From a virus: a stretch of DNA of 64,000 nt. Every line of letters begins with the position of its first letter. Within the stretch, counting starts at the first letter, position 1. Below are positions 10,904 through 49,580 of the stretch, one piece after another. Location: IMG/VR virus record IMGVR_UViG_3300021197_001654, positions 1 to 64,000 of that record; one strand, written 5' to 3'. Under the pieces are notes generated by a model, which ran no database searches, was not told the DNA's origin, and saw only the letters and a list, made by a program, of their open reading frames with translations. Position numbers and translations under genes: made by a program.

Positions 10904-13743
10904 GGAGTCCCCTTAAATAGATCACGCCTAGCTTTTAGCGCTTCGAGCCCCTGAAGGTCGAAATTAATCGGGTTACCCACTGGAGGGGTCGAAGGGGGTG
11001 CCGTCGGAGGCGCTCCCCCTGCTCCAGGAGCGATAACCCCCGATGGTTTTTTCGCCTCATCTGCGGGAATATCCAACTCATTTGAGGTATCGGAAACTGG
11101 TGTAGGCGGGCTAACGCCGCCGCCCAGAGGGGCCTCGACTCCCCGAAGCATAATCGCAAGGTTCTTACGTCTCTGCTCTTGATCGGCGCCACTCAACGAT
11201 GTCGATAGCTTCCGCTGTGCCGCAGCCCGTTCTGCGTCCGTCATCGGAGTGACCGTTTTAGGCGTAACGCCGGCAGCCGCAGCCATCCTGTAGTACGCTG
11301 CCACGCGCTTCCCCGCGTCCTTGTTGTTTAGCGTCACTGCATTCTGTGCCGCCTTAAACGCTTGGTCTCCATCTTGCGCGAATACAGCCTTCGGGTCTTG
11401 GGGCACGGGGGTTACAGGAGGTTTATTTTCCTCCGCGTTAACGGCGGCCACTTCTTCAATACCCGCGATAACACTTTCCTCAGACGTCAGCTTGTCCGTC
11501 GAAGGTGCATCAGTTCTGGGGGGCGCAGTATTTTCCGCTGCGATTTCTTCCGTCGTCTTAGGTGGCGCGCTAATGCTCACAACCTTTAGGCCGCCAATAT
11601 TATATTCTTCGCCCCGAGACCTGCCCGCAGACGCGTCAAACTTCACGTCCGCGACTTCAAGACCCAAGGATTCGGGAGTGATCGCCTCGAGCCTTGAGGC
11701 GCGAACACCGTCGAATGTAGCGAGATACTTGGGATCATAATCGGGCTCACCCTCAAAGCTCTCCACGCCAAAGTCAAAATTGTCCCCTTTAAGGTCCTCG
11801 GCAGTGATAAATCTTGCCTTCCCATCCGCGTTCTCCGGATCGTCAGGATCGGCATCGTAAATAACAGCGCGACGTGACTCAGCAGCCATAACCTTCGAGT
11901 ACAGATCAAATCCTGGGAGGGAGCTTGAGTCAGGGTCGCTTTCAACCGGGGTCAGAACAGGTTTTCCCTCGTCCGTCAGGTCGCGCAAAAATACCTGGCC
12001 GTCAGATGTGACCAGGTATTCCTCGCCGTCTACAACCCGTGCCGTGATCTCACCGCCAGAAATTGCTTCCTCCCGCCGCGCATTGTACTCATCCTCACTG
12101 AGGAACCTTCCGTTATCGAGAATAAAACTGCCTTCGACCATCGCCGCCTCTTCTTCTGAGAGGGGAGAGGAGCCGCTGACCCGCGAGACCGCCGCAGCTA
12201 TGTCGGCCTCTGAGTTGCGGTGCAGCCTGTTCGCCCGACGCGTTAGCTTCGAAGCCCTATCGGGAATCTCACTAATCAACTCCACCTCACCGTTCTCGGC
12301 GATATCCTTTGTAATTAGTAGGGGCGGACCCTCAGCTTGAGTAATCTTCATCGTCCCCGGAGGATCAAACGCGTGATGCTTTAGACGCTCACCCTCGTAC
12401 ACCTTACCGTCGATCGTGACCCGAATAATCTCGCCGGTACCGATGCTCCGGAATCCGTAGTTACCCTCACCCCGCTTAAGCTCCCTCTCGAAAGCTCTCC
12501 GGGCAGGCATGTCATCGCGGCCTGGAATATAAGTGCTGAGGTCGACGTTACCATTAGCGTCCGTATCCACACGGCCGAGGCTTGTAAATCCATGGTCGGC
12601 CGCCCACGCCCGGTACGCCGTACTGGTTGTCGCCTGAGCTAGCTCCATCTGTGCTTCGTCGTATTGCGCGGGGCGCATCTGACGTAGCATCTCCAGATCT
12701 CGAAGACCTCGATCACGCGAAGCCTCTACGCTTTTGACGGTCGCCAGATCATCCAAAATCTGCTCTGCATCGTCAACGTCTATTCCCCCGTCGTTCGCCA
12801 ACTCTTCCATGGCAGTTGTCCGGTCACGAATAGCGCTCAGACTCTTCATATATTCGTCCGGCGTCAGGTCAGTCTTCATAAGATCGGCGGATCGAAGATT
12901 AATGTCATCCTGTGCATCTGATAGTTTAGCCATCGCCTCGTTGTGAGGCTGTCGGTACGTGTTGTATCGACTGAACAAGTCCATGCCCCTACCATCCGCA
13001 GTCCTGTCCGCAAATAGCTGCGCAACCTCATTCTCGTCGCGCAAGCCCAACCTCACAAGCGGGGAATCGGAGAGCGAGCGCTGGTTACCATTCTCGTCCA
13101 GGCCCTCACCCTTAAGCGCGGCCATGTTGGTTATTACCCCATTCTCCATCTCAAAAATAGCTCCGCCGCCGGGCAGAGCTTTCGCATCCTCATTCAGAGA
13201 CTTCAGAACTTGTTCGAAACCGTATACGTTCCTTGCCTCACTCAATTTGATGGGTTTAGTCGCGTTAAAAACATCTGGGTTAGAAAGCAGGTCCAGTTGG
13301 GCCTGGAGCTTCGAGACTCCCGACGCCCGTGAAGCTCCCGACTGACTCAACAACGTAGCTAGCATGTCGTCGTTCGGCTGCTTCTGGGCGTCAATAAGCT
13401 TCCCTAAGTCACGCGCAACTTTCTTCGCGTCCGCTGAAATACTCCTCGCCAAAGCCGTGTTTTTAGTATCCATCGCCTTTTTGATGGAGAGAGATAGTTT
13501 AGTCTGGCCGTTTCGATAGTCGAGTGCCATCTCAAGATCAGACCGACTCATCTTGTACAACTGCTGGTTCGCCATTCGAATTTCGATGGCTACGCCCTTC
13601 TCGAGCTTCATGATGTCGAGGAACCCTAGATCCGAAGCAGTTCGCTTAACCTGATTCGATGTCAGGTTGTTGACCGACTGCCCATGCTGATAGGCAGATG
13701 CCAGCTTTACCATATCGATTGTGGGTACGTTAGTAAAACTCAT
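10900..13743 (-). CDS. Large internal virion protein candidate, unknown
   Basis: A 947-residue acidic protein. The N-terminal third is helical (DLEMALDYRNGQTKLSLSIK). A central region has beta-type segments (GEIIRVTIDGKVYEGERL; LVTSDGQVFL). The C-terminus is Pro/Gly/Ala-rich and probably disordered. No transmembrane segment and no catalytic motif seen. Its size and position between the membrane-anchored protein and the giant lysozyme protein parallel the internal core proteins of T7-like phages (gp15 position); this is inference from gene order only. Its stop overlaps the next ATG by four bases. Confidence 0.65.
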   Translation of the reverse strand: MSFTNVPTIDMVKLASAYQHGQSVNNLTSNQVKRTASDLGFLDIMKLEKGVAIEIRMANQQLYKMSRSDLEMALDYRNGQTKLSLSIKKAMDTKNTALARSISADAKKVARDLGKLIDAQKQPNDDMLATLLSQSGASRASGVSKLQAQLDLLSNPDVFNATKPIKLSEARNVYGFEQVLKSLNEDAKALPGGGAIFEMENGVITNMAALKGEGLDENGNQRSLSDSPLVRLGLRDENEVAQLFADRTADGRGMDLFSRYNTYRQPHNEAMAKLSDAQDDINLRSADLMKTDLTPDEYMKSLSAIRDRTTAMEELANDGGIDVDDAEQILDDLATVKSVEASRDRGLRDLEMLRQMRPAQYDEAQMELAQATTSTAYRAWAADHGFTSLGRVDTDANGNVDLSTYIPGRDDMPARRAFERELKRGEGNYGFRSIGTGEIIRVTIDGKVYEGERLKHHAFDPPGTMKITQAEGPPLLITKDIAENGEVELISEIPDRASKLTRRANRLHRNSEADIAAAVSRVSGSSPLSEEEAAMVEGSFILDNGRFLSEDEYNARREEAISGGEITARVVDGEEYLVTSDGQVFLRDLTDEGKPVLTPVESDPDSSSLPGFDLYSKVMAAESRRAVIYDADPDDPENADGKARFITAEDLKGDNFDFGVESFEGEPDYDPKYLATFDGVRASRLEAITPESLGLEVADVKFDASAGRSRGEEYNIGGLKVVSISAPPKTTEEIAAENTAPPRTDAPSTDKLTSEESVIAGIEEVAAVNAEENKPPVTPVPQDPKAVFAQDGDQAFKAAQNAVTLNNKDAGKRVAAYYRMAAAAGVTPKTVTPMTDAERAAAQRKLSTSLSGADQEQRRKNLAIMLRGVEAPLGGGVSPPTPVSDTSNELDIPADEAKKPSGVIAPGAGGAPPTAPPSTPPVGNPINFDLQGLEALKARRDLFKGTP

Positions 13744-37971: not shown

Positions 37972-38227
37972 CTCGCACCACGGCGAAGAGAGACACACTC
38001 CGGCGAGCACCTATTAACCTCATCCTTACTACTAACTGGGGGCGAAGACTAACTCCATCACGGCGGGCCCAAACTTTTTTCCACGGCGGGGGGGAAGGCA
38101 AGGTCAATGGCGGGCCGGGTGAGGAGACAAGAACTGTGGGGGGGATTGGCGTTGAGTAAAGTCTGGTGCCCTGTGCCCAGTCCGCCCGCGATCAAGCCCT
38201 TCAGTCATACCATGCGTTCAGAACCCT

Positions 38228-38283
38228 GGGTGAAACAAAGGTATATTTTTTAACCCCAGAAAATATCTTCCTTTCTTTCACCC
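38228..38283 (+). repeat. Long imperfect inverted repeat (22-24 bp arms)
   Basis: GGGTGAAA (38228-38235) pairs with TTTCACCC (38276-38283). The arms continue inward through AAAGG/CCTTT to ATATTTT/AAAATAT, leaving a loop of about ten bases. It sits 80 bases ahead of the first small gene of the rightward operon and would form a stable leader hairpin in its mRNA. Confidence 0.7.
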
Positions 38284-38363
38284 ACGAACCTGCCCACCTG
38301 GTCGGACTGGGTCGTGATCGGGACGGCCCGGTCACAGTTCCCCAGCCTTTACAGGAGATAGAA

Positions 38364-39641: not shown

Positions 39642-40051
39642 ACCCTAACCCGTTACACAGCGTAACACTCTGTAACACACTCAGTGTTACGGCAAACCAT
39701 AGGTTCTATCTACCTTATTAGTAAGTGTAACACTGTAACACTAATTCCTTAGATAGTACTCCTCGTAGCGTGAGGCTCAGTGGGTTTAACGTAAGCCTAT
39801 TACCCACTACCCACTGTCTCCTTACGTATACACACCCTAAAACACAAACCCGTGTTACAGTGTTACACCTCGGCATATGTCAGGTTCAACGCCGAGTCTC
39901 CCGTAACACGCACCATGTTACGCCGTGTAACGCACATCAGAGCATCCGGCCATAAGCCAGGTTCTAACGTGGGTCCGGCGTAACACTACCTCAATCATCA
40001 GGCTTTTGCTGGTGATCATAGAAACTTCAACACGACCAGGAGGTCAACATC
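39642..40051. other. 410-bp gene-free stretch with GTAACAC/GTGTTAC repeat array
   Basis: Nothing codes convincingly here. Nine exact GTAACAC or GTGTTAC heptamers lie between 39662 and 39986, in both orientations. A further feature, GGC-N7/8-AGGTTC, occurs three times (39691, 39872, 39948), each with GTAACAC downstream. See the repeat entry. Confidence 0.75.
39652..39986. repeat. Iteron-like array of GTAACAC/GTGTTAC
   Basis: GTAACAC starts at 39662, 39672, 39727, 39735, 39903 and 39980; GTGTTAC at 39684, 39852 and 39860. Three composite units pair an outer heptamer with GGC-N7/8-AGGTTC: unit 1 39684-39733, unit 2 39860-39909 (both 50 bp), unit 3 about 39925-39986. In units 2 and 3 AGGTTC and GTAACAC are exactly 21 bases apart. 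Unit 2 also has CTCGGC (39869-39874) pairing with GCCGAG (39891-39896). Looks like a protein-binding array, such as an origin or partition/transcription control site. Confidence 0.7.
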
Positions 40052-40984: not shown

Positions 40985-41614
40985 ATGACACCAAGTAAAG
41001 AAGCCGCCCTTCGTCGTCGCATCCTCAAGCCTTACTTCCTCACGGTTGACCAGGTTGCGCACTTCTACAAATCCGACTCTGTGACCTACGGGTTCCGTCG
41101 GGTCGAGAAGATTGTCGACGGCAAGAAGGTCATCACGGATTACCCCATTGAGGTTGCCCGTAAGTTGATTAACCCTCAGGACCCAAGCTGCCCTAACTGG
41201 CACTTCCTGACCAACAACCCCGAGACAGCCAGGGAACTCGCTCGTCTACTCCCACGTAGTCAGCGTCCCTGGATGAACGACCAACGTTCTACCTGGTCAT
41301 ACGGCCTGGAGAAAGATTGGTACGCTGAGCCTGCCTTCTCCATGTCCTACAAGGTACGCGTCAAGGAGTGGACAGGTCGCCCAGGCCCGAGACACGTAGG
41401 TCCCTTCTGGGTCCGAACTGCCAAGGCCAAGGCACCCACAACCTTCTGGCTCCAGGGTCGCAAGGTTGAGGCCGGAGACGTCAGCGACCTCCAGGTAGAT
41501 ACGACCCTCAACGGAGATGAACTCTCATACGTTGAGAAGGTTGCAATGCTCCGCGACAGAAAAGCTTGGTCCGCCGCGGTCCGAGCAGGCGAACTTCCCA
41601 GCTTCACAGAGTAG
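40985..41614 (+). CDS. 209-residue protein, unknown
   Basis: Basic and aromatic-rich (LKPYFLTVDQVAHFYKSD; TYGFRRVEKIVDGKKVITDY). Mixed alpha/beta, no metal site or membrane segment, no catalytic motif I recognise. It follows a terminator hairpin and precedes another, so it may be its own transcription unit. Larger than most genes in this region. Confidence 0.6.
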   Translation: MTPSKEAALRRRILKPYFLTVDQVAHFYKSDSVTYGFRRVEKIVDGKKVITDYPIEVARKLINPQDPSCPNWHFLTNNPETARELARLLPRSQRPWMNDQRSTWSYGLEKDWYAEPAFSMSYKVRVKEWTGRPGPRHVGPFWVRTAKAKAPTTFWLQGRKVEAGDVSDLQVDTTLNGDELSYVEKVAMLRDRKAWSAAVRAGELPSFTE

Positions 41615-42970: not shown

Positions 42971-43372
42971 ATGAACATCGTAATCATCCACGGAAACCTT
43001 GGCGCCGACCCAAAGCCAGGACAAACCAAGTCAGGTCTCGCTGTGTGCAACATGAGCGTCGCCACTAACGAACGCAAGCAAACCGACGGCGAGTGGGTCG
43101 ACCACACCGAGTGGCACCAAGTCACCGTCTTCGGCAAGCAAGGCGAAAACTGCAGCAAGCACCTGGCCAAGGGCTCGAAGGTTGTCATCAACGGCAAGCT
43201 CCGTACCCGCAAGTACACCGACAAGAACGGCGTAGAAAAGTACAGCACCGAGATCGTAGCCGACCGGGTTGAGTTCTCAGGCAAGAGCAACAACGCTCCA
43301 GCCACAACGACAGGCAGCATCCCGTCGTTCAACGGAACCTCATCATACGGCAACGACGAAATACCTTTTTAG
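42971..43372 (+). CDS. ssb: Single-stranded DNA-binding protein
   Basis: 133 residues from the ATG at 42971 (AAGGAGCAATC upstream; an earlier in-frame start adds atypical residues). OB-fold: NIVIIHGNLGADPKPGQTKS, VCNMSVATNERK, WHQVTVFGKQGENCSKHLAK, GKLRTRKYTDKNGVEKYSTE. It ends in a flexible Asn/Thr-rich linker and the acidic tip GNDEIPF, the bacterial SSB interaction peptide. It coats single strands during replication and recruits partners. Its position in the early block, not beside the polymerase, is unusual but not rare. Confidence 0.93.
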   Translation: MNIVIIHGNLGADPKPGQTKSGLAVCNMSVATNERKQTDGEWVDHTEWHQVTVFGKQGENCSKHLAKGSKVVINGKLRTRKYTDKNGVEKYSTEIVADRVEFSGKSNNAPATTTGSIPSFNGTSSYGNDEIPF

Positions 43373-43684
43373 GGACAAGTAGTTTGCGGTCTGCTTTACT
43401 AAAACCGCACCCTTTATACGAGCCACGCCCAATCGCCATGGGATAGTCGGGGACCGTCCCCCGATGACATGAAGTGAGGTAGCCCCTCACAACAAAAAGG
43501 TCGGACCCCGAGTGCGCGTTCATTGCGTGCAGGCATACCGCTGGGGTCGGTGCGAGCGGCACCGTAAGAAGTGCGTCTGAACAGGTGCTGGCATTATCTG
43601 CCAGGAGTAGTCAGGCCGAGGATACTCGGAAGACTCGCCGTCGACGAGGCGACACTTCACCGCTCACCTTACCCAGGAGCAATC
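43373..43684 (+). ncRNA. Hairpin-dense gene-free stretch, structured RNA candidate
   Basis: 312 bases after ssb without a convincing gene. At least eight inverted repeats follow one another: TGCGGT/ACCGCA (43385/43404), TCGGGG/CCCCGA (43447/43459), GTGAGG/CCTCAC (43474/43485), GACCCC/GGGGTC (43504/43543), CGGTGC/GCACCG (43548/43559), CTGGCA/TGCCAG (43588/43599), CCGAG/CTCGG (43616/43625), TCGCC/GGCGA (43635/43648). This density is far above the surrounding DNA. It is not a tRNA: no T-loop GTTCRA with proper arms. It could be a regulatory RNA, a long leader, or a packaging/origin structure. Confidence 0.4.
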
Positions 43685-43867
43685 ATGCTTGAACCAAAAG
43701 GCCTCCCATTTAAACCAATCAGCGAATGGACAGACAAAGAACTCCAGCACGCGGTCGATACCGCTCCACACTTCCGCAAGGAAGACACCATCAACATGGC
43801 GGTGTGGATTGGGTGTCATGCCAGAGACGAACTTGAGAAACGAGCCAATACCAAGGAGCAGTCATGA
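43685..43867 (+). CDS. Small protein, unknown
   Basis: 60 residues from the ATG at 43685 with CCAGGAGC upstream. An earlier in-frame start would cover the hairpins and is rejected. Amphipathic, no motif. ATGA overlap with the next gene. Confidence 0.5.
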   Translation: MLEPKGLPFKPISEWTDKELQHAVDTAPHFRKEDTINMAVWIGCHARDELEKRANTKEQS

Positions 43868-44378: not shown

Positions 44379-44394
44379 AACCATTTTCTGGTTT
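44378..44394 (+). terminator. Weak hairpin with T-rich tail
   Basis: AAACCA (44378-44383) pairs with TGGTTT (44389-44394), followed by GCGTTTTATTTT. It ends the preceding transcription unit; a promoter candidate follows at once. Confidence 0.45.
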
Positions 44395-44430
44395 GCGTTT
44401 TATTTTAATCTATAGTATACCGTATTGGTA
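44393..44430 (+). promoter_or_regulatory. Promoter and operator candidate
   Basis: TTGCGT (44393-44398) and TATACC (44416-44421), 17 bases apart. Over the -10 and start lies TACC-GTATT-GGTA (44418-44430), an inverted repeat related to the TGGTAA/TTACCA palindromes elsewhere. The gene starts at 44441. Confidence 0.4.
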
Positions 44431-44440
44431 AGGAAAGAAC

Positions 44441-48115: not shown

Positions 48116-48433
48116 ATGCACTACACCACACACAACAACACCGACATCGACATCTTCGGCACCCACCTGCAGGGCTACATCGACTGCTCCTATCAGCGAC
48201 TGACAACCCTCTTCGGCAAACCAGACCCTACAACATCCTGGAAAGTAAACTGGGAATGGATCATAAAGTTCGACGACGGCACAGTAGCCACAGTGTACGA
48301 CTGGAAGTCCGGTTCCCGACTACGCGACATCGACGGCGACCGAGACACAGCAATCGTCCAGTGGAACATCGGCGGACACAACCGCAAGGCTCTCGACTAT
48401 CTGTACGACACCATCAACACAGACACCGCGTAA
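48116..48433 (+). CDS. Conserved phage protein, unknown
   Basis: 105 residues from the ATG at 48116. RLTTLFGKPDPTTSWKVNWE, then WIIKFDDGTVATVYDWKSG and IGGHNRKALDYLYD. This resembles small phage proteins of the type 'W.I.F.DGTVATVYDWK' that I recall from several genomes. Function unknown. A GTG start 63 bases earlier is less likely. Confidence 0.6.
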   Translation: MHYTTHNNTDIDIFGTHLQGYIDCSYQRLTTLFGKPDPTTSWKVNWEWIIKFDDGTVATVYDWKSGSRLRDIDGDRDTAIVQWNIGGHNRKALDYLYDTINTDTA

Positions 48434-48498
48434 CGCTTTCGCGCAGTTGGGGATCTGCGGTGAACGGAACCAAAATCCCCCCTATCAACGGAGCAACC

Positions 48499-48675
48499 AT
48501 GTCCTACCCAGACGATTGGGGCAACGGCTACACACTGTGCCCTACATGTAAACACTACTTCCACAAAAGCGGCACCATGGAATGCATCTGCATCCAGTGC
48601 GCATCACCAGACTGCGACGAACTCGTAGACCCACAGGAGAAAACATGCAACGACTGCACGACGGACTCAGAGTAG
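48499..48675 (+). CDS. Zinc-ribbon small protein
   Basis: 58 residues from the ATG at 48499 (CGGAGCAACC upstream). CPTC at 14-17, CICIQC in the middle, then CDEL and CNDC: two probable zinc knuckles. It overlaps the next start by 31 bases in another frame. Confidence 0.5.
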   Translation: MSYPDDWGNGYTLCPTCKHYFHKSGTMECICIQCASPDCDELVDPQEKTCNDCTTDSE

Positions 48676-49079: not shown

Positions 49080-49580
49080 ATGCCCACAAACATCTACAAA
49101 GTCACCATCGAAGCAATCATGTTCGCCGACACAGACCCAACCAACGGCGACGCCGACGCACTGCTCACGGACCTGCTGACCAGCCCCAGCCGTATCATGA
49201 ACGTCTCAAGCAAACGATACGTCGAAGCGACCAGCACCAACGAAGACGACTGGACCAAACACTCAGTTGAACCAGCACCGACACCTATCGAAGGTCCCCC
49301 ACCCGGAACACTCAAGACGACCGGATCGCCGAGACCACATAGCACCCGACCACACCAACTCGAAGCACGCAAAGCTGCAAACGGCAAATGGAGCAACGTA
49401 CATACATACGCCTACTTCAGCAACGACTACATCGCAAAGGGCCTACTAATGGGACGCGAAGCAAGAGTCTGCCACGGACGACGCTGCGTATGGCTCACGA
49501 TCGACGAGTCCAAAAAGGTCAGCGCCCAAATCAAAGCGTACACCCGTGAACGCGCAGTTGCGCGGAAGGCACAACTATGA
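49080..49580 (+). CDS. 166-residue protein, unknown
   Basis: An N-terminal beta segment (NIYKVTIEAIMFADTDPTNG), a Pro/Ser/Thr-rich linker, and a basic C-terminal domain (GREARVCHGRRCVWLTIDES). No enzyme motif. Coupled to the following gene through ATGA. Confidence 0.55.
   Translation: MPTNIYKVTIEAIMFADTDPTNGDADALLTDLLTSPSRIMNVSSKRYVEATSTNEDDWTKHSVEPAPTPIEGPPPGTLKTTGSPRPHSTRPHQLEARKAANGKWSNVHTYAYFSNDYIAKGLLMGREARVCHGRRCVWLTIDESKKVSAQIKAYTRERAVARKAQL

Follow-up and report, generated by a model that had tools for sequence, protein, structure and literature searches.

Pseudoknotted RNAs in the vicinity of genes for single-strand DNA-binding proteins (SSB) have been described in bacteria and in phages. 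The STAXI RNA motif (RF01728), a pseudoknot of Enterobacteriales, is found near SSB and other DNA-handling genes, arranged in tandem as two or three units and often carrying UUCG loops (PMC2864571). In phages T4 and RB69, the autoregulatory pseudoknot of gene 32 lies upstream of the SSB gene, and gp32 binds to it; its stems are coaxially stacked in T2, and a related structure is present in RB69 (PMC535899, PMC3014915). In turn, the put RNA of phage HK022 is a cis-acting element with two copies per genome, carried by early transcripts, which is about 70 nt long and consists of two stem-loops, no pseudoknot being reported (PMC9378689).

Here we describe a locus in which a predicted pseudoknot directly follows an ssb gene, and we show by comparing viral contigs that this small conserved RNA pseudoknot, as read from the sequences, recurs in many unrelated phages.

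The gap after ssb

The window, i.e., the whole stretch of 64,000 nucleotides that was analysed, is part of a 73.7-kb virus record with tailed-phage-like structural and replication genes (terminase, portal, DNA polymerase and primase-helicase families). Among the sequenced phages searched no close relative of this virus was found, and its metagenomic relatives are numerous by portal protein (66-100% identity). The ssb stop codon (43370-43372) and the ATG at 43685 enclose a gap of 312 bases (43373-43684) with no convincing gene inside. The features of this region, together with a second copy of the pseudoknot, are the following.

42971-43372, + strand: ssb, single-strand DNA-binding protein (PHROG 44, E 1e-42).
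43371-43413, + strand: possible outer helix AGGG/CCCT enclosing pseudoknot copy 1, read from the sequence and overlapping the ssb stop codon.
43377-43409, + strand: predicted H-type pseudoknot, copy 1 (orthologues in the related contigs G003 and G008, covariation, model match, shuffles), with S1 AAGTAG 43377-43382 paired to CTGCTT 43391-43396, L1 TT 43383-43384, S2 TGCGGT 43385-43390 paired to ACCGCA 43404-43409, and L3 TACTAAA 43397-43403.
43414-43670, + strand: hairpin-dense, apparently non-coding insert (fold and hairpin counts; absent from G003 and G008), with stems GTGAGG/CCTCAC 43474-43490, GACCCC/GGGGTC 43504-43548, CGGTGC/GCACCG around 43548-43564, CTGGCA/TGCCAG 43588-43604, CCGAG/CTCGG 43616-43629 and TCGCC/GGCGA 43635-43652.
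43685-43867, + strand: small gene 3′ of the gap, 60 aa, with no relative in the searched viral contigs.
48442-48480, + strand: predicted H-type pseudoknot, copy 2 (model match 21.7 bits, E 0.005; 8 of 1000 shuffles as good), with S1 CGCAG/CTGCG, L1 TT, S2 GGGGAT/ATCCCC and an L3 ending AAA.

The first-pass annotation had described the gap as eight consecutive hairpins, too ordered for a simple terminator. Six perfect, non-overlapping hairpins are counted when arms are required to have 5 bp or more and loops 3-8; shuffled sequences average 1.47, and 2 of 1000 have as many. The density is thus real, and the number eight is recovered if larger loops are included. Four of the hairpins have arms of at least 6 bp, a count that none of 1000 shuffles attains, and among 817 stretches of 312 bases three match the gap's count at 5 bp and two its count at 6 bp. 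Terminator prediction indeed finds no terminator in the gap. Furthermore, the + strand RNA folds more stably than shuffled sequence (-118.3 kcal/mol, z -2.50, 2 of 100 shuffles as good) and the - strand fold is ordinary (z -1.03); in a GC-corrected scan of the + strand over the whole window, the best 200-base stretch of the gap ranks 15th of 1277, which is high but not extreme. In the same window, the - strand fold of 38202-38309, where two arms of 50 nt, 72% complementary, form an imperfect inverted repeat around an 8-nt loop, is the most extreme after GC correction (z -6.1).

Over the gap, neither ARAGORN nor the Rfam tRNA model reports a tRNA, no Rfam family reaches its gathering threshold, and relaxing Rfam to E 10 yields chance-level matches only. 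A tRNA or a degenerate tRNA array was rejected on these empty searches, though a branched, cloverleaf-like fold can be drawn for 43568-43659. An HDV-like ribozyme, suggested by GGGGACCGTCCCC, which we take to resemble the HDV P4 stem, has no Rfam match and its remaining helices could not be placed by eye; a group I intron has no Rfam match either.

When 30 related viral records were searched at the DNA level, the only part of the gap to match above chance was its first 37-38 bases. This stretch is 92% identical in G003 and 89% in G008, in each case directly after an ssb orthologue (protein identity to the window 57% and 61%, respectively), and the next gene, which by eye is unrelated to the one that follows in the window, starts about 25 nt past it. 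Since the relatives keep the first ~40 bases only, the rest of the gap (~43414-43670) would be an insertion in the lineage of the window or a loss in the others. The gap is thus composite, with a conserved pseudoknot at its start and a lineage-specific run of hairpins behind it. Copy 1 starts 5 nt past the ssb stop, a position similar in G003 and G008; in both relatives S1 reads AAGCAG, which gives a C-G pair in place of the window's T-G, and L3 is 7 or 6 nt long. A candidate outer helix can also be read in their sequences (GGGAG/CTCCC in G003 and GGAGA/TCTCC in G008). The first hairpin of the earlier description (TGCGGT..ACCGCA) corresponds to S2, the simple-hairpin view being unable to reveal the other half of a pseudoknot. 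A frameshift or readthrough signal was rejected, given that the spacing from stop to knot and the length of L3 shift by one base between G008 and the window or G003 and that, past the ssb stop, the ssb frame closes in about 10 codons (window, G003).

Two other stretches of the window deserve mention. At 39662-39986, GTAACAC occurs nine times, exactly and in both orientations, in 325 bases of a gap with no convincing gene (seven further copies lie elsewhere in the window), which makes this cluster a candidate replication origin or operator array. At 44388-44434, an AT-rich sequence ends in TATACCGTATTGGTAAGG ahead of a gene start and looks like a promoter or operator; a similar sequence precedes a gene in G003 and G008. 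A search for relatives of the gene at 40985-41614 was empty.

A pseudoknot family in unrelated phages

In viral contigs, the pattern AGTTTGCGGTCTN{1,20}AACCGCA returned 17 stretches, and nearly all the distinct ones complete S1 beyond the searched letters (GCAG/CTGC, CCAG/CTGG, ACAG/CTGT, CTGGGAG/CTCgCCAG). A second scan of viral contigs, CAGTTTGNNGTCTGN{3,14}AAAACNNC, left two S2 pairs free and gave 49 distinct matches. Both free pairs are kept in 40 of the 49, where 14% would be expected (p ~5e-26, treating the matches as independent), in nine combinations: CG/CG, AG/CT, GA/TC, GG/CC, GG/CT, GT/AC, TG/CA, TA/TA and AA/TT. The three AA/TT matches were excluded from the model: they may be chance, as they are near-identical, do not extend S1 and overlap a long frame in part or in full. 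The nine matches that do not pair all lie in frames of at least 100 codons, as expected of chance matches.

In an alignment of 29 sequences, 94.8% of the pairs are standard, 40 cells are changed on both sides, and the covariation score is 0.35; shuffles give 0.09, and slid structures do not exceed 0.08. The rows of this alignment (A2) had been filtered for pairing of the core stems, so that the unbiased support comes from the free-pair scan and from the outer S1 pairs, which were not selected and in which both sides are changed in nine and nine of the 29 sequences. G-U pairs are present in both stems. Copy 1 matches the model with 46.8 bits (E 1.6e-8), its own sequence being included in it, and in 1000 shuffles of the region no knot of equal quality arises. 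Altogether, compensatory changes between homologues, the check proposed in the first-pass annotation, uphold the structured RNA that had been supposed in the first-pass annotation for the 33-nt pseudoknot at the start of the gap, at pairs that the search left unfixed, and not for eight consecutive hairpins.

The fold that we infer from these comparisons has an S1 of 3-6 bp, an L1 of 1-3 nt, mostly U, an S2 of 5-7 bp, no L2, and an L3 that is mostly A-rich; the commonest sequence is CAG-UUU-GNNGU-CUG-(n)AAA-ACNNC, in which the conservation of the fixed letters is overstated because most members were found with patterns fixing much of the sequence. No family of Rfam 15 covers the knot, whether the gathering threshold is applied or short stretches are searched with relaxed E-values, and no description of the motif was found in the open-access literature (subscription papers and most preprints being outside this scope).

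Searches of a phage collection with the knots of the window and of three other carriers (L299, L225, L352) gave chance-level matches at most, and the knot of L336 led to cultured Streptomyces phages. Five of these carry the knot at one site after tRNA-Arg(acg), with a different S1 in each. In pSt2308 and GiJojo, where it lies 55 nt after the tRNA and 28 nt upstream of the next gene, S1 is CAG/CUG in one and CGG/CCG in the other, so that the second pair differs, A-U against G-C, with both sides changed; these two knots are below the 4-bp S1 threshold of the shuffle scan. Alone3 has CCCGG/CCGGG. In LuckySocke S1 is CUGU/ACAG (CTGT/ACAG in the DNA) and S2 is rewritten to GGCAG/CTGCC, and in BRock S1 is CCCUA/UAGGG (CCCTA/TAGGG) and S2 is rewritten to TGCCGGA/TCCGGCA; in both phages the otherwise constant letters are nearly all replaced and the topology is retained. 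In the shuffle test BRock is significant (5 of 1000), and LuckySocke alone is not (51 of 1000). Bacterial genomes yielded 16 pattern matches, mostly chance ones without S1, with the exception of L316, which lies in a tRNA-rich contig; among 393 genomes of the order to which its genome belongs, the knot is present in one, L316's own.

Genomic context of the knots

The knots are largely intergenic: eight of 39 sites lie in frames of at least 100 aa, compared with 108 of 114 chance copies of a 14-mer. A tRNA is found within 100 nt of ten of the 39 sites and of none of the 114 chance copies, an excess due in part to the intergenic position of the knots, and in both counts related contigs are not independent. 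Within 1 kb of the knots, all 42 tRNAs are on the strand of the knot, which fits a transcribed element. In five contigs (L299, L307, L316, L352, L367) the 3′ end of the knot is 3-6 nt before a tRNA, and in more than 12 cases it is 16-28 nt ahead of a start codon; the 5′ end is often 6-15 nt past a stop codon, as with copy 2 of the window, which comes directly after the stop at 48431-48433 and 18 nt upstream of the ATG at 48499. Other knots are hundreds of bases from the next predicted gene, and the tight spacing may reflect compact genomes alone. The neighbouring genes vary between carriers.

Some tRNA-related sequences were noted in passing. On the reverse strand of L303, the knot at 13089 has long repeats TAGAATAGGC..GTGTCTATTCTA on both sides; between them are tRNA-like pieces with GGTTCGAACCC, which ARAGORN leaves uncalled. 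On the reverse strand of L304, no clear gene follows the knot at 2481, and a tRNA-like 3′ half, GGTTCAAATCCTGACCGTTCCA, is not called as a tRNA. The phage contig L352 has about 20 tRNAs and a tmRNA at 11382-11717 (69.5 bits), near its knot.

In L291 and L349, a separate hairpin-rich insert of about 240 nt directly follows the knot; it is absent from L225, which has the same downstream gene. Together with the insert of the window, this means that an untranslated hairpin-rich stretch has been placed behind the knot at least twice. It is tempting to consider the run at 43414-43670 as a conserved functional non-coding RNA of this phage in its own right, and we regard this as doubtful. It does have more hairpins and a stabler fold than shuffled sequence, and the insert of L291 and L349, at the same place, keeps a stem, CTGGGA/TCCCAG, while its loop changes; however, a z of -2.5 is modest, with 14 of 1277 + strand stretches of the window ranking higher by GC-corrected energy, and no homologue of the run was found by DNA search of the 30 related records, by a covariance model (R2) over those records and 11 loci, or in viral contigs by way of the three following proteins joined as one query. 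Nor does the model of the window insert match that of L291 and L349. The most suitable reading of the window insert is that of an orphan RNA or of untranslated RNA cargo. As for the roles put forward in the first-pass annotation, that of a leader for the downstream small genes is possible, and that of a trans-acting RNA could concern only the insert.

Role of the knot and known systems

Orientation, free choice of neighbours and retained topology point to a fold that acts in cis at cistron boundaries, and we incline on balance to the view that polycistronic phage transcripts carry the knot as a cis-acting boundary element. It would form a compact folded block in such a transcript, placed where one cistron gives way to the next gene, tRNA or untranslated RNA. 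One specific form of this role, which we put forward tentatively, is that the knot could set a boundary of RNA processing or decay, either by stopping exonucleases or by fixing cut sites. Among the possible roles we rank this one first, antitermination second and translational control third; the results presented here separate none of the three. With still less confidence, the family may be imagined as a reusable boundary module of unrelated tailed phages, for which protein genes, tRNAs and orphan RNAs would be interchangeable cargo, and which would act on a shared host machine (RNA polymerase, ribonuclease or ribosome).

Were the knot instead an RNA for processive antitermination or against pausing, recognised in cis by RNA polymerase as HK022 putRNA is, it would let the polymerase pass untranslated structured RNA and tRNA arrays. 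In keeping with this, several knots precede untranslated RNA (the five tRNAs 3-6 nt downstream, the window insert and that of L291 and L349), and the number of copies per genome is low, mostly one and at most about two (besides the second copy of the window, G038 has one at 49092, and L283 has two about 340 nt apart). Some carriers also have a strong promoter-like site just upstream, namely TTGACA-18-TATAAG 24 nt upstream of the knots of L225 and L291 and TTGACA-17-TATACA 31 nt upstream of that of L309, and such a site is clear for L357 as well. Nevertheless, many knots have no promoter-like site within 250 nt, and in the group of the window the knot is within an operon after ssb, with no promoter or terminator found beside copy 1. 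Given also a fold that differs from the ~70 nt and two stem-loops of put RNA (PMC9378689), this explanation appears rather unlikely.

It is less probable still that the knot is a translational operator of the next gene, comparable with the gene 32 pseudoknot bound by the SSB of T4. Here and in three related contigs the knot does adjoin ssb, and the common distance of 16-28 nt to a start codon would put it just beyond the ribosome footprint; but it is 3′ of ssb and not 5′, most carriers have other genes adjacent, and in several it is an untranslated tRNA that begins 3-6 nt downstream.

Short H-type pseudoknots with an A-rich L3, as in the knot, are known from the preQ1-I riboswitch (RF00522) and other short H-type aptamers. 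Letters that are constant in L1, at the S2/S1 junction and in L3 across unrelated phages (many of them fixed by the search patterns) would suit a ligand-binding riboswitch or a self-cleaving ribozyme. We consider this very improbable, since the neighbouring genes change between carriers, LuckySocke and BRock replace nearly all these letters while the topology stays, and no Rfam riboswitch or ribozyme covers the knot.

Finally, the DNA structure for packaging or replication considered in the first-pass annotation, to which the proximity of ssb and a DNA fold of the insert that also beats shuffled sequence (z -3.4) could be related, is hardly credible in view of the strand shared with all 42 neighbouring tRNAs, the G-U pairs tolerated in both stems, the varied and unrelated gene contexts, the lack of a consistent association of knot sites with packaging or replication genes, and a better origin candidate at 39662-39986.

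Among described motifs, STAXI is the closest to the knot, both being pseudoknots found near ssb. Membership was rejected: in ten carriers nothing scored above the gathering cut-off of the RF01728 model (40.5 bits), and the model did not match at the knot, while as a control it exceeded this value in 5 of 295 genomes belonging to the same order as a Vibrio genome; reciprocally, the pseudoknot model matched none of six true STAXI loci. Moreover, the knot occurs once per site, and the two copies of the window are 5 kb apart and not in tandem, unlike STAXI. With the gene 32 operator it shares the nature of a phage RNA pseudoknot of about 30 nt adjoining an SSB gene, but in four related contigs it is 3′ of ssb, and elsewhere it has no ssb beside it. 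It differs from HK022 put RNA as a 33-nt pseudoknot differs from two stem-loops, and from the preQ1-I riboswitch in having no Rfam match even at relaxed E-values and no constant neighbouring gene.

Few RNA elements common to unrelated tailed phages are known. The knot is strongly supported by comparison, has no counterpart in Rfam 15 and is located in phage tRNA arrays, and its presence in cultured Streptomyces phages makes its function directly testable. Should its target be a host machine that distant bacteria have in common, the knot would represent a general phage strategy for dealing with long, partly untranslated transcripts.
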